Origin: Bdellovibrionales bacterium | Lineage (GTDB): Bacteria > Bdellovibrionota > Bdellovibrionia > Bdellovibrionales > UBA1609 | Assembly: GCA_022450595.1 (NCBI GenBank) | Contig: JAKUPT010000023.1 | Span: 1 to 42,817 of the forward strand | Direction of reading: 5' to 3' | Length of the DNA stretch: 42,817 nucleotides | Shown here: in pieces, positions 35,251 to 40,949 of the stretch | Layout of the letters: every line of letters starts with the position of its first letter | How positions within the stretch are numbered: position 1 is the stretch's first letter | Made by a program: the position numbers and the translations under genes | The notes under the pieces: model-generated | Told to the model about the DNA's origin: nothing | The model's input: the letters and a program-made list of their open reading frames with translations, nothing else | The model's database searches: none

Positions 35251-36150
35251 ATGTGTATTTTGATGACGTCGGTTAAAAATATGGAATCTAATATTGAGTT
35301 TGATGAGATAATCTCTCCGAAGTGGAGTGGTTGTCATGTTGTTAAGATTTGTGAAGATCTGAACTTATCGAGTTTAAATACTAAAAGCATTGGTGTGAGC
35401 CATGAAAACGAGATGGGATATCTTGTAGAGCTTGTGGCCGACAACGGACTTCATCATGTTGTTCAATTAAGCAATAATAAGTTTGAGTCAGAACTCAACA
35501 CTTCAGCCTTAATGCTTTCAGACAGTGACACTTTTTTCAACAAGCCCGTGGTATCTGTACTTTCTCCATTAGAAACAGATGTACATGATGATTCTGAGTA
35601 TATTATTTGGGAAAAAGAATTTACGTATAAAGAAACGAAAACAAGGGACTTAGATGAGTTAGAGGAGTTTTTAGCCACAATCATTCGTCAAAAGTCTACG
35701 ATTCAAAGTGTTCGTTTAATTGCAGATGAGCTTTATACAAACGCTGTTTACAATGCGCCTTTGTCGAAGTTTGGAAAGCAACTTTTAAAAGTATTGCCCT
35801 TTAGAAGGTATAACAAACCAAAATCTGCAAAACTTTTCATAGCACAACACAATGATAGACTTGTTGTTGGATGTGAAGATCAGTTTGGGAGCTTAAGTGT
35901 TTCGGCATTAATGAAGCGAGTAAAATCTATTTATGAAAAAGGTGTGGGAGATTCTATAAAGTTTACTTCAAGTACTGGTGCCGGAATTGGCACTTATATG
36001 ATCATGCAAGCATGTACAAGTTATTTTGCTGCAGTATTTGAAGATAAAAAAACGCTAGTTATGGGTGTCATACCACTTGGTGTGAGTTCAAGAAAGCGTG
36101 AAGAATTGCCTAAAAATATACATTTAATTCAATATAAAGGGGGTCAGTAA
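35251..36150 (+). CDS. GHKL ATPase-domain protein, RsbW-like
   Basis: The C-terminal ~150 residues resemble the ATPase fold of anti-sigma-factor kinases. SVRLIADELYTNAVYNAP is an N box, VVGCEDQFGSLSV occupies the G1 position, and TSSTGAGIGTYMIMQACTSYFAAVF the G2/lid region. The N-terminal ~110 residues are acidic and not recognised. The stop codon overlaps the start of a STAS-domain gene (TAATG), so the pair resembles the SpoIIAB-SpoIIAA or RsbW-RsbV arrangement used in partner switching. No sigma factor gene is adjacent. The start is uncertain: ATGs at 35251, 35263 and 35281 all lack good ribosome binding sites. The gene heads a five-gene cluster with a hybrid sensor kinase and two receiver proteins. 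Confidence 0.7.
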   Translation: MCILMTSVKNMESNIEFDEIISPKWSGCHVVKICEDLNLSSLNTKSIGVSHENEMGYLVELVADNGLHHVVQLSNNKFESELNTSALMLSDSDTFFNKPVVSVLSPLETDVHDDSEYIIWEKEFTYKETKTRDLDELEEFLATIIRQKSTIQSVRLIADELYTNAVYNAPLSKFGKQLLKVLPFRRYNKPKSAKLFIAQHNDRLVVGCEDQFGSLSVSALMKRVKSIYEKGVGDSIKFTSSTGAGIGTYMIMQACTSYFAAVFEDKKTLVMGVIPLGVSSRKREELPKNIHLIQYKGGQ

Positions 36151-36626
36151 TGGGTCATATGAAATTAGGATCTTCAATGGATGGTGATACACAGATCATT
36201 GAAGTGGCAGGACAAATTGATGAGGATGCAAACTTCTCAAGTGCGGAGTTAAAGTCAGATAAAATTCACTTAGACCTATCGGGAATTGATGCGATTAATT
36301 CTTGTGGAATTAGAGAGTGGATAAAGTGGATTAAAACAGCGCCTGAGAGTTCGCAGATTACTTATAGTAAATGTCCAAAAGTGATAGTGGACCAAATCAA
36401 TATGGTGGCAGGATTTTTACCAAATAATGCACAAGTGGAATCATTTTATGTTCCGTATTACTGTGATGAATCAGGGGCTGAAAAAATGGTGTTGTTTGAA
36501 AGTGGTAAAGACTATAACCATGGTGAGTTGAACCCACCTGAAGATGTTAAGTGTGACGAATCTGGTGAAGAAATGGAAATGGACGTTATTGAGGCTAAAT
36601 ATTTTAAATTTCTTAAAGGTGCTTAA
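36150..36626 (+). CDS. STAS-domain protein with degenerate C-terminal zinc-ribbon-like tail
   Basis: A 158-aa protein whose first ~100 residues fit the STAS fold of anti-sigma factor antagonists. TQIIEVAGQIDEDANFS is the first strand pair. KIHLDLSGIDAINSCGIREWIKWI follows, with Ser51 at the position phosphorylated in SpoIIAA-type proteins. The C-terminal ~55 residues contain PYYCDESG and, 35 residues on, VKCDESGEEMEMD. These look like two halves of a zinc ribbon in which the second Cys of each CxxC has become Ser. Both ends are translationally coupled (TAATG with the ATPase gene before and the kinase gene after). It is probably the binding partner of the upstream ATPase protein. Confidence 0.7.
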   Translation: MGHMKLGSSMDGDTQIIEVAGQIDEDANFSSAELKSDKIHLDLSGIDAINSCGIREWIKWIKTAPESSQITYSKCPKVIVDQINMVAGFLPNNAQVESFYVPYYCDESGAEKMVLFESGKDYNHGELNPPEDVKCDESGEEMEMDVIEAKYFKFLKGA

Positions 36627-38551
36627 TGGATTATAGCTTTTTTGACTCTTTAATAGATGGTGTCTTTGTTTTTGATGAAAGCAAAACTGTCACCTATTGT
36701 AACGAAGCTGCAGCAAGCTTAGTCGGTTTGTCTGTAAGGCGTGTTTTAAAGGGCAAAAAAGTATATGAATTAATAAAATTTGATGATCAAGATTTGTTTT
36801 CGATGCCTAAAGGAACTAAAGGTGAATCCTCTCCTGTGCCAAACACTGAGCTTGAATTTACTATTATAAAGTCACAAGAGGTTGGAAAAATACAGTTGAC
36901 CCTTCAGCCTTTCACGGATCCTTCTGGCGCTAGCCAATGGATTTTGATTCTTCACGATGTTACTCTAGAGGAGACTCTTCATAGTAAATATCATGCACAA
37001 CTTGAAGCTAAAGAGGAAGTGATTGAAGAGTTAAAAAAAGCAAAACAAAAAATAGAAAATTACTCTAAAAATCTTGAAAAAATGGTGGCTGAGAGAACCG
37101 AGGCCCTAAATCAAGCCAACATGACCTTAAAAGCTATAATGAATAGCTTAGGTCAGGGCTTTTTAACATTTAATAAAGATGGCCTTTGTGGAGATATCTA
37201 CACTCGAGCTTGTGAGTCTATTTTAGAGTCTAATCCCCAAGATAAAATGATATGGGAGGTATTGAATCTCAATGAAGACGAAATTCCTCACATAAAAATG
37301 TGGCTTCAAGCCTGTTTTCAAGAAAACTTACCTTTTGAAAGCTTAAAAGATCTTGGTCCATCTGATTATCGTCACAGCCAAGGTTGGCATATCAGTTTAG
37401 ATTTTTACCCTATTAGAGATAATGACAATAAAATACTTCAAGTAGTGATGGTCGCTACAGATAAAACAAAACAGATAGAAGCTGAAAGAGCTATGGAAGT
37501 TGAAAAACAAAACTCTCTAATGATGATTAAGCTCGTTAAAAATAAAGATCAGTTTTTAGACTTTTTGTCTTCAGTTGAAGAGAAAATCCAATGGTTGTCT
37601 GATATATCAAAAGATAATTTTAACCTTGAGGAGACCTATAGAGTTTTACACACTTTAGAGGGAGAAGCTGGTATATTTTCAGTTAAAAAAGTTGTCGATG
37701 AATGTAAAAACTGCCAACAAATATTAGAACCATTAAAAGCTAAAATCACCGATGAAAAACATAAAATTATTGATGAGTTTTTAAATAAAATTTCAGATCT
37801 CAAAACATCATACTATAGTTTTTTAGATGAAAATCAGGAACTATTTAAAACATTCAAATTATATGACTCTGACAAAACTGTAAATTTAGCTATAAATGTT
37901 ATTGAAAATTACTATAGATTTTTAAATAAAAAGCCTGAAATAAGTGAGGCTATTGAAAAGTTTGACAATGATTTTAGAAAAACAGATATCAATAATTTAT
38001 TTTTTCATTTTGATGATTTGATTTCACTTGTGGCGGAAAAAACTGGTAAAAAACTTAATCCTATAAAATTGAATAAAAATAAAATAAAAGTTTACTCAGA
38101 GCCCTTAAAACCATTTTTTAATACCTTAGTCCATGTTTTTAGAAATGCAGTAGATCATGGCATAGAGAGCCCAGAGGAAAGACAGTCAATTCAAAAACCA
38201 GAATTTGGAACTATAACTATTGATTGCTATGAGAATGCAAACACCATAAGCATTGCTATCGCTGACGATGGCAAAGGAATAGATCCAGAGGTTATTAGGA
38301 ATAAACTTCCTCAAAAATCAAAAGGTCTAAGTGACAAAGAAGTGATTCAACTGATCTTTGAACCAGGGTTTTCTTCGAAAGATGTCGTTTCAGATTTCTC
38401 AGGTCGTGGTGTTGGTATGGATGCTGTAAAAAATATGGTTGAAAAATATAATGGCAATATTCATGTACAATCGATTATAGGTACAGGCACAAAATTATTT
38501 ATTGATCTTCCTAAGATACAAATAGATAATAATTACATAACGGCAGCTTAG
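36626..38551 (+). CDS. PAS sensor kinase with Hpt and CheA-like catalytic domain
   Basis: A 641-aa cytosolic signalling kinase without visible membrane segments. It has a PAS domain at ~1-115 (FFDSLIDGVFVFDESKTVTYCNEAA), a coiled coil at ~115-165 and a second PAS-like domain at ~165-290. An Hpt-like domain follows at ~305-410, with YRVLHTLEGEAGIF placing a phospho-accepting His at about 342. A CheA-type HATPase domain at ~470-635 completes it: LVHVFRNAVDHGIESPEER (N box), IADDGKGIDPE (G1), FEPGFSSKDVVSDFSGRGVGMDAVK (F/G2 region) and GTGTKLFIDLP. The P2, dimerisation and CheW-like domains of true CheA are absent. So it likely phosphorylates its own Hpt His and passes phosphate to the adjacent receivers. 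Start and stop couple it to the STAS gene, and the CheY gene follows after 10 bp. Confidence 0.85.
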   Translation: MDYSFFDSLIDGVFVFDESKTVTYCNEAAASLVGLSVRRVLKGKKVYELIKFDDQDLFSMPKGTKGESSPVPNTELEFTIIKSQEVGKIQLTLQPFTDPSGASQWILILHDVTLEETLHSKYHAQLEAKEEVIEELKKAKQKIENYSKNLEKMVAERTEALNQANMTLKAIMNSLGQGFLTFNKDGLCGDIYTRACESILESNPQDKMIWEVLNLNEDEIPHIKMWLQACFQENLPFESLKDLGPSDYRHSQGWHISLDFYPIRDNDNKILQVVMVATDKTKQIEAERAMEVEKQNSLMMIKLVKNKDQFLDFLSSVEEKIQWLSDISKDNFNLEETYRVLHTLEGEAGIFSVKKVVDECKNCQQILEPLKAKITDEKHKIIDEFLNKISDLKTSYYSFLDENQELFKTFKLYDSDKTVNLAINVIENYYRFLNKKPEISEAIEKFDNDFRKTDINNLFFHFDDLISLVAEKTGKKLNPIKLNKNKIKVYSEPLKPFFNTLVHVFRNAVDHGIESPEERQSIQKPEFGTITIDCYENANTISIAIADDGKGIDPEVIRNKLPQKSKGLSDKEVIQLIFEPGFSSKDVVSDFSGRGVGMDAVKNMVEKYNGNIHVQSIIGTGTKLFIDLPKIQIDNNYITAA

Positions 38552-38561
38552 GTAAAACTAT

Positions 38562-38981
38562 ATGATCGCAAAAACAGCCAACATTTTAGTCGTAGATGAC
38601 TCAGCACACATGCGAAAGCTCATCATCGATAGCTTAAAGCAGTTAGGCTTTAAGTCTTCAATTCCTGCTGAAAATGCCAGTGAAGCTTTAAGTCAGTTAA
38701 ATCAAGCCAAGCAAAGCGGAACACCTGTTGACCTTATTCTGTCTGATCTGAATATGCCAGGGCCTAGTGGCATGGACTTTTTAAAGCAGGTACGTTCATC
38801 TGATAGCTACTCGAGTTTACCCTTTATACTAATCACTACAGAGAATGAAAAGCAGGCAGTGATTGAAGCCGCTGTAAATGGTGTAAGTGGTTATATAGTA
38901 AAACCATTCGACGTACAGACTCTGTCCCAACGTCTAGTTGAGGCTTGGCAAAAGCATCATCCAAGTAGTGAAAAGCTTTAA
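38562..38981 (+). CDS. CheY-like single-domain response regulator
   Basis: A 139-aa stand-alone receiver. Conserved residues are the acidic pair Asp12-Asp13 in ILVVDDSAHMRKL, the phosphoryl-accepting Asp62 in LILSDLNMPGPSG, Thr in ILITTENEK and the Lys in GYIVKPFD. There is no output domain, so it should act by protein-protein interaction, as a phosphate shuttle or as a CheY at the flagellar motor. It begins 10 bp after the PAS/Hpt kinase gene, its most likely phosphodonor. The RR is followed after 30 bp by a multidomain receiver protein. Confidence 0.92.
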   Translation: MIAKTANILVVDDSAHMRKLIIDSLKQLGFKSSIPAENASEALSQLNQAKQSGTPVDLILSDLNMPGPSGMDFLKQVRSSDSYSSLPFILITTENEKQAVIEAAVNGVSGYIVKPFDVQTLSQRLVEAWQKHHPSSEKL

Positions 38982-39011
38982 TTGTATTTCAAATCTGCCG
39001 ATAACTAGGCT

Positions 39012-40949
39012 ATGAGAAAGCGTGATATTCATATTTTAATTGTAGATGATGATGCAAGTTTTGGTGAGTCTCTTTCAAGGACGATCTCTAAACTTGGCTA
39101 TAAGGCTACAGTTGAAACATCTGCTCAATCAGCCCTTCAAATTGCTAAGATTAAAAATATTCATGCGTTATTTATAGACTGTATGTTGCCAAAAACCAAC
39201 GGAGTTGAGTTGGCACAAGAACTAAGACGCTTAGGTCTTGATGATGTTCCTATTTTTTTAATGAGCGGTATATTTAAAGATAAAGCCTTTTCTCAAGATG
39301 CTATGAGAAAAACAAATGCCACTTTGTTTTTGTCAAAGCCATTTGAAACTAAAGACTTTCAAGCCCAGCTTGAGGACTACTTAAGTCAAGTGGTAGAAGT
39401 ACCTAAGCTTCCTCTTCATGCACTACTTGCAAAGCCTATGGCTTCAAGAAGAGACAGAATTAAAGCCTTAGAAAAGATGGATGAGATCAATGGCTTTGAC
39501 TTACCTTTTGTCATTAGTATTTTGATTCAAGGTGAAAGTAGCGGCCATTTAAATATATATTCAACTGAAGGTGATATTTTTGGCATTACATTTTGCAATG
39601 GGATACTAACAAAGGTAGATACCGCTAACACCAATACTGTTATAGAAAAATTATTAATTGAAAAAGATTATATATCAACAGAAGACCTTACTACCTATAA
39701 AAATATGAATAATAAAGGTGATGTTCTTAAAAATTTAATCGAGTATAATTTTATTAGTCCCCACATAGTTGGTGAAATTAAACTAGAACAAATGTTTTTA
39801 GAAATCGAGGACTTGATTACCTCCAATAAATTACAAATTAATTTTTCACCAGCCGAAGTTGAATGTGAAGATGTTTATATCAGTAGAAACCTATTAACAG
39901 TTGCTTTTGCTCAAGGGTTAGAAAAAAAATATAAACTAGAATGGTTACAATGTTTTTATGAACCATGGCTGGATCATAAAATATACATAGGGCCAGCTTA
40001 TGTAGACCTTTCTCAGGTATTGCAATTTAATGCTATTAAACGTGTACAAAATATTTTTAAAGATATTAAAGAAGAAAAAACACTTAGAGATATATTAGGT
40101 GAAAATAAGTATGATAAAAAGCAATTATACGTAGCTTTGCACATTCTTGCGATCAAAAACTTTATAGTTTTTGATGACCAAAAAAAGAAAACAGAAAAAT
40201 CTCAAACTGATGTTGATAGAATGAGTCTTATTTATGAATCTTTAAAAGACAAAAATCCATTTGAAATCTTTGAATACTTTGGAGCTCCTGCAAAGTGCCC
40301 TCCATCTGAAGTTGATAGAATTTACAAAGAATTTGTAAAATCAAACCATCCAGATAAATTTAATAATGAAGATGAGGACAAGAAGAAAGTTATAAACTCA
40401 CTATTCGGAGTCGTAACTTCAGCACATCATATATTGATGGATCCCAATAAAAGAACTAAATATGAGAATGAGAAAAAGCAGGAAAGTATAAAAAAACAAC
40501 TACAAGCAGAAAATATTATCTCTCAAGCCGTTAAAAAACTCCAATTAGGGCACTATCAAACAGCGCTTGAAATGGTAGCTGAAGCCGATAACCTCTATAA
40601 TCATCACAATCACCAGTTGTATATGATGTGGGCTAAAATTAAAATGCAGGGGGCTTCTGTAAATTCTGATATTATAAAGAAAGCTAATGAGTTTTGTCGT
40701 GATTATCCTGAGGATGAAAGAAAATCTGCCATATTTTTATTCTTTCAAGGTTTAGTTAAAAAATCAGAGAACAAAATCGATGAGGCGGCAAACTATTTTC
40801 AAAAATCTTTAAACGTGGATAACCGATTTTTAGACGCCAGACGTGAGCTTGGATTGTTAGCTCAAAGTAAGCCAAAAGAAAAAGAATCTATTCTCAATAA
40901 AGATTTAGGTGAAGTGATTGGCTCTTTTTTTAAAAAGAAAAGCAAGTAA
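39012..40949 (+). CDS. Response regulator with PATAN/DUF4388, J-domain and TPR regions
   Basis: The N-terminal receiver (1-125) has Asp12-14 in ILIVDDDASFG, phosphoryl-accepting Asp56 in LFIDCMLPKTNG and Lys109 in LSKPFE. Residues ~150-350 resemble the PATAN/DUF4388 output domain (SSGHLNIYSTEGDIFGITFCNG). A J-domain follows at ~410-490, with VDRIYKEFVKSNHPDKFNNEDEDKKK containing the HPD motif at 446-448, which in DnaJ proteins stimulates Hsp70 ATPase. The C-terminal ~150 residues form TPR-like helices (LGHYQTALEMVAEADNLY, DEAANYFQKSLNVDNRFLDARRELG). It is the last gene of the signalling cluster; its stop abuts that of trmJ on the other strand with no spacer. The function is unknown; the architecture suggests a phosphorylation-controlled co-chaperone or scaffold. 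Confidence 0.85.
   Translation: MRKRDIHILIVDDDASFGESLSRTISKLGYKATVETSAQSALQIAKIKNIHALFIDCMLPKTNGVELAQELRRLGLDDVPIFLMSGIFKDKAFSQDAMRKTNATLFLSKPFETKDFQAQLEDYLSQVVEVPKLPLHALLAKPMASRRDRIKALEKMDEINGFDLPFVISILIQGESSGHLNIYSTEGDIFGITFCNGILTKVDTANTNTVIEKLLIEKDYISTEDLTTYKNMNNKGDVLKNLIEYNFISPHIVGEIKLEQMFLEIEDLITSNKLQINFSPAEVECEDVYISRNLLTVAFAQGLEKKYKLEWLQCFYEPWLDHKIYIGPAYVDLSQVLQFNAIKRVQNIFKDIKEEKTLRDILGENKYDKKQLYVALHILAIKNFIVFDDQKKKTEKSQTDVDRMSLIYESLKDKNPFEIFEYFGAPAKCPPSEVDRIYKEFVKSNHPDKFNNEDEDKKKVINSLFGVVTSAHHILMDPNKRTKYENEKKQESIKKQLQAENIISQAVKKLQLGHYQTALEMVAEADNLYNHHNHQLYMMWAKIKMQGASVNSDIIKKANEFCRDYPEDERKSAIFLFFQGLVKKSENKIDEAANYFQKSLNVDNRFLDARRELGLLAQSKPKEKESILNKDLGEVIGSFFKKKSK

Follow-up and report, generated by a model that had tools for sequence, protein, structure and literature searches.

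The window, the whole 42,817-nucleotide stretch of DNA that was analysed, contains a co-directional run of five genes (A-B-C-D-E, + strand, 35251-40949; open reading frames checked in the window), and the order of these genes is real and selected. We consider it somewhat probable that they form an operon specific to Bdellovibrionales, which would carry a signal from the envelope to the cytoplasm through two linked phosphorylation systems and would act at the protein level, not through transcription. The genes and their main features are:

35251..36150, + strand: gene A, 299 aa, putative SpoIIAB/RsbW-fold serine kinase (GHKL) with an extra N-terminal domain
35725..35742, + strand: N-box of A, DELYTN (aa 159-164); D159, E160, T163 and N164 invariant in 15 homologues
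35977..35991, + strand: glycine-rich ATP-lid motif of A, GAGIG (aa 243-247), from the homologue alignment
36150..36626, + strand: gene B, 158 aa, putative STAS-domain antagonist whose C-terminal extension is conserved
36300..36302, + strand: Ser51 of B in I-N-S-C-G, invariant in 20 homologues
36626..38551, + strand: gene C, 641 aa, PAS - coiled coil - (PAS) - Hpt - P3-like - CheA P4, no P5
37649..37651, + strand: His342 of C (LHTLEGEAG), predicted phospho-accepting residue of the Hpt domain, invariant in 21 homologues
38123..38515, + strand: HATPase_c / CheA P4 of C (aa 500-630), by Pfam and CheA profile match
38562..38981, + strand: gene D, 139 aa, stand-alone CheY-like receiver, predicted phospho-site Asp62
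39012..40949, + strand: gene E, 645 aa, REC - PATAN - J-domain - TPR protein
39033..39371, + strand: receiver of E (aa 8-120, Asp56), Pfam 5.6e-17; D13, D56, S85 and K109 kept
39486..39860, + strand: PATAN/DUF4388-like region of E (aa 159-283, SPH motif 249-251), Pfam E=0.011
40272..40466, + strand: J-domain of E (aa 421-485), Pfam DnaJ E=4.9e-7, above the curated cut-off; J-domain helix pattern in the model
40347..40355, + strand: HPD motif of E (aa 446-448), invariant in 50/50 HPD-bearing family members
40734..40823, + strand: TPR-like repeats of E (aa 575-604 and neighbours), Pfam; all-helical C-terminus in the model

Composition of the five genes

The A/B and B/C junctions are overlaps of 1 bp each (sequence TAATG), followed by gaps of 10 bp (C/D) and 30 bp (D/E); the reading frames, overlaps and spacing given in an earlier note on this DNA were all recovered. 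The 5' flank includes genes with matches to hppd, hmgA and ribD of the comparison set (the match to ribD by family model), and at the 3' flank a TrmJ-like methyltransferase gene lies on the opposite strand. The operon has neither a CheW gene nor a receptor gene. No sigma factor gene adjoins it within the window, and the earlier statement that the set includes no sigma factor and no DNA-binding gene holds.

Gene A alone had no convincing Pfam match, and a PDB profile search with it gave no match. Its predicted structure (pLDDT 85.5, pTM 0.86) later found SpoIIAB and RsbW as the best fold-search matches, with SpoIIAB 1til as the top PDB entry (E=1.2e-4). D159-E160..T163-N164, D210..G213, G243.G245.G247 and T268 are invariant in 15 homologues, and A shows both the GHKL ATP-binding motifs and the SpoIIAB fold of RsbW/SpoIIAB-type kinases. 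Going by the homologues, translation of A may in fact begin at 35263, its second Met. The beta-alpha order of the N-terminal domain of about 110-120 aa (window 35251-35610) resembles that in a receiver's second half, and the response regulator LvrC was also among the fold-search matches; A may have descended from a receiver-kinase fusion.

Gene B alone also lacked a convincing Pfam match. Pfam STAS matched weakly in two of 20 family members, and four of the five profile matches in PDB were STAS proteins, all weak (best TM1442, E=0.026). These matches, together with the motif, point weakly to a STAS protein. Ser51 is a conserved phosphorylatable residue at the switch position; it would be the positional equivalent of the phosphorylated Ser in SpoIIAA/RsbV and would be phosphorylated likewise. 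Two more B-like STAS proteins are encoded in the window genome (G000:C104:11848-12318 and G000:C35:49823-50281), with no adjoining A, C or E.

Gene C matched PAS (E=2.5e-11) and HATPase_c (7e-17) in Pfam, and its Hpt match (4.6e-4) was under the curated cut-off. The profile of C matched CheA with E=1.5e-57, in an alignment spanning the P3 dimerisation region and the P4 kinase region. C has the Hpt domain (P1) with its His, P4, and a P3 recognised by profile. C stops after P4, so the CheW-binding domain P5 is absent. It had been described as CheA-like without CheW and dimerisation domains; the former is correct, while the P3-like region in the profile alignment speaks against the latter. The CheA-like phosphorelay itself is supported by motif, profile and fold.

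Gene D gave a Pfam receiver match of 1.4e-23, with D13, D62, T92 and K114 invariant in 18 homologues. The acidic pair, phospho-Asp, Ser/Thr and Lys of response regulators are found in both D and E. When the fold search was made with E in full, all matches listed were receivers, so its J, PATAN and TPR regions rest on profiles and predicted helices. The PATAN/DUF4388 match, weak in E itself, was found in 23 of 27 homologues (best 4.8e-9), and the TPR match, weak in E alone, in 19 of 27. The four-part make-up first proposed for E agrees with these results, for PATAN and TPR by way of the homologues.

Conservation of the gene order

We annotated the neighbourhoods of E-homologue loci in 59 relatives and of 80 loci from a B-profile search, and removal of duplicate B sequences left 58 distinct loci with cluster-type B. 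The earlier note had set such a survey beforehand as a test that could refute it; it did not, as the genes proved to be conserved together. Chance or annotation artefact as the origin of the run is ruled out by this synteny, because it is conserved in many genera at 24-64% identity. B and C orthologues co-occur genome by genome in the window's family and in the Bdellovibrio family, and are jointly absent from the remaining genomes there. One 2.7 Mb genome of the Bdellovibrio family (G042, f8 in the order) lacks A, B, C and E altogether, unlike its relatives.

There are two layouts. In the first, that of the window, C directly follows B (25 of 58 loci), D comes next in all 23 loci that can be read beyond C, and E after it in 20 of 22; in 21 of the 25, A is immediately before B. 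In the second (28 of 58, including B. bacteriovorus strain kdesi), the order is FecR|PP2C-B-E, with E directly after B and C divergent beyond. The PP2C gene is just upstream in 25 of these 28 loci and a FecR-domain protein gene in 23, and A is missing from 23.

By sequence, the PP2C of the loci is a HAMP-containing membrane protein of SpoIIE/PP2C type. It is inside the locus in nine of the 25 window-type loci. Because FecR and PP2C genes are inside the locus in most relatives, a RsbU-like phosphatase and a FecR sensor belong to the system. The closest PP2C of the window genome (409 bits) is encoded on contig C82, divergently from a FecR gene as in the relatives, so that a cognate PP2C/SpoIIE phosphatase exists there but is unlinked to the operon. 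The partner-switch pair that the earlier note saw in A and B is real by motif, profile and fold, but it was incomplete, for relatives add the HAMP-SpoIIE/PP2C phosphatase and the FecR protein. Another sensor-phosphatase pair in the window genome consists of a second HAMP-PP2C gene beside a short FecR-like gene (L101, G000:C144).

An A-like SpoIIAB-type ATPase domain also forms the end of longer proteins, one in the window genome (L198, G000:C102, 2300-4075) and one in genome G048 (L197, 3944-5371); they occur in Bdellovibrio too. By eye, the start of these proteins resembles a cyclic-nucleotide-binding domain. The long A-like protein is a candidate stand-in kinase at loci without A.

E homologues are encoded by 48 of 59 relatives, and full-length ones (E<=1e-40) came only from the window's order when 97 genomes from all over the phylum were sampled. 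E is not obligatory, since a genome from another family of the order (G043) has FecR|PP2C-A-B-C-D without E, and another (G025) has A-B-C-D together and E elsewhere. From these two genomes the core of the system is FecR/PP2C plus A-D, with E as a frequent partner.

Many genomes, including that of the window, have a second copy, E', which adjoins mreC-mreD-pbp2-rodA and trxA (mreBCD-pbp2-rodA). Window-type E, Bdellovibrio-type E and E' were separate, well-supported groups in the tree. The neighbours of E' suggest a link of the E family to cell elongation. E' of the window genome (L080, G000:C120, 5129-7063) is itself REC-PATAN-J-TPR, and the rod-shape neighbours are found in most families of the order.

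Output of the operon

In the dual-switch model that we favour, an envelope signal would be sensed by the FecR-domain protein and the HAMP-PP2C, which would then remove the phosphate from Ser51 of B; A would re-phosphorylate B, and B would thereby switch partners. C, having intact motifs, would autophosphorylate at His342 and then phosphorylate both D and, at Asp56, E. Because B stays beside C or E even at loci without A, it probably makes contact with C or E as well, which would link the two arms. Phosphorylated E would use PATAN and TPR to dock on a target machine, to which its J-domain would bring DnaK in the window's lineage, and D would be a second output or a phosphate sink. E would then be a phosphorylation-controlled scaffold, able to recruit DnaK in that lineage. 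The leading guesses for its target are the pilus or polar machinery and the cell-elongation machinery.

The invariant catalytic residues of all five proteins count for this model, as do the gene order conserved in many genera, the joint presence or absence of B and C, the PP2C and FecR genes in the loci of relatives with their counterpart pair on C82, the SpoIIAB fold of A, the invariant HPD, and the cyanobacterial and Pseudomonas precedents cited below. Against it count the lack of a target gene for E inside the operon, the loss of the J-domain in the Bdellovibrio branch together with the non-obligatory E, and the STAS identity of B, which comes from weak profile matches and a motif.

The earlier note took a phosphorylation-controlled Hsp70 co-chaperone as the output. 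In its broader form, E is a phosphorylation-gated co-chaperone, C, tuned by the STAS switch, sets where and when DnaK acts, and the J-domain was later stripped in Bdellovibrio; we hold this as a tentative possibility. The narrower claim, that the J-domain is the main output and phosphorylated E a switchable co-chaperone in the window's lineage, appears doubtful to us. E of the window and its lineage have intact J helices with HPD, a full-length DnaK is encoded, and the invariance of HPD (50/50) compares with a mean column identity of 44% in the same proteins. However, all 24 cluster E proteins of Bdellovibrio type lack a recognisable J-domain, with at most 5.2 bits against a J-region model that gives the HPD-bearing set at least 74 bits, and they are still in the operon with D13, D56, S85, K109 and the S-P-H motif. 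In three E proteins of the window's family, also in the operon, the J fold persists (42-59 bits) but HPD is missing.

The J-domain is therefore strongly selected where present, yet not required for E to remain in the operon. Judged from these sequences, it is not the conserved output of the operon, though in the window's lineage it looks functional with its invariant HPD. As a general rule the co-chaperone output is not supported, because the J-domain is no longer recognisable in Bdellovibrio-type operons with intact receiver and one operon (G043) has no E; for the window's lineage the hypothesis survives. The independent losses make a role of E in Hsp70 recruitment directly testable. If E is a gated co-chaperone, it would be a direct two-component-to-chaperone output, and the loss in Bdellovibrio a natural experiment on what the J-domain adds.

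In genus g25 HPD is lost from both paralogues, E and E'. We considered that a dedicated Hsp70 partner was lost alongside it and rejected this: all the genomes have DnaK, and the presence of HPD is not paralleled by that of any second full-length Hsp70, which also weighs against the J-domain as main output.

On the cyanobacterial pattern, E could be a PATAN-type regulator acting on type IV pili or polar motility, with DnaK recruited as an accessory; we think this unlikely. In cyanobacteria, PATAN regulators such as PixG bind the pilus motor PilB (PMC12288463), and so, separately, does a TPR-DnaJ3/DnaK1 pair (PMC9239167); E unites PATAN, J and TPR in a single chain. By this analogy a motor or polar machine would be a reasonable target. 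But PilT is in 58 of 59 genomes, operon present or not, so that its co-occurrence is uninformative on a pilus link, and the location of E' beside mreBCD-pbp2-rodA points to cell elongation instead.

We give equally little credence to a classical transcriptional switch, in which A is an anti-sigma factor acting on a sigma factor encoded elsewhere (e.g. FliA) and C-D-E an independent phosphorelay merely sharing the operon. A is SpoIIAB/RsbW-like and B STAS-like, and the Pseudomonas HptB/PA3346/PA3347 system, where a Hpt-driven phosphorelay feeds a partner switch, works through FlgM/sigma-28 (PMC8256260). No sigma factor was seen among the marked, classified neighbours of the 58 loci nor adjacent to the operon in the window, and in the Bdellovibrio-type loci without A the PP2C and B stay with E.

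Relation to known systems

No paper describing the operon, the whole combination, its conservation throughout the lineage or a REC-PATAN-J-TPR effector was found in the literature searched, and none of the terms looked for occurred in the body of the transposon-sequencing article. We tried to place the B. bacteriovorus HD100 locus tag by a neighbouring superoxide dismutase gene and rejected it, as Bd1402 is described as L,D-transpeptidase. Each part has known relatives. The operon is widespread in the predatory Bdellovibrio and relatives, many of them uncultured. If its working is as we propose, it would show a serine-phosphorylation partner switch and a histidine-aspartate phosphorelay feeding one cytoplasmic effector.

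The RsbU/RsbW/RsbV and SpoIIE/SpoIIAB/SpoIIAA systems of Bacillus resemble it in the fold and motifs of A, the Ser position of B and the adjoining SpoIIE/PP2C in relatives. Unlike them, the operon lacks a sigma factor, carries an additional N-terminal domain on A, and is joined to a CheA-like kinase and two receivers. The HptB-PA3346-PA3347 system of Pseudomonas aeruginosa likewise couples a Hpt phosphorelay to a STAS partner switch, but one response regulator there holds phosphatase and kinase, whereas the operon type has phosphatase, kinase, STAS, Hpt kinase and receivers as separate genes, and its last protein is REC-PATAN-J-TPR. Gene C is similar to CheA in P3-P4 and in Hpt with phospho-His; it differs by a PAS sensor region in place of P2, by lacking P5, and by the absence of CheW and receptor genes from the operon. 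PixG/PixE PATAN-CheY proteins of cyanobacteria share with E the receiver and PATAN and have no DNA-binding part, but E has the order REC-PATAN with J and TPR fused on. DnaK1/DnaJ3 of Nostoc and Synechocystis also place a J-domain and TPR co-chaperone in a signalling setting; no receiver is described on DnaJ3, which is outside any kinase operon.
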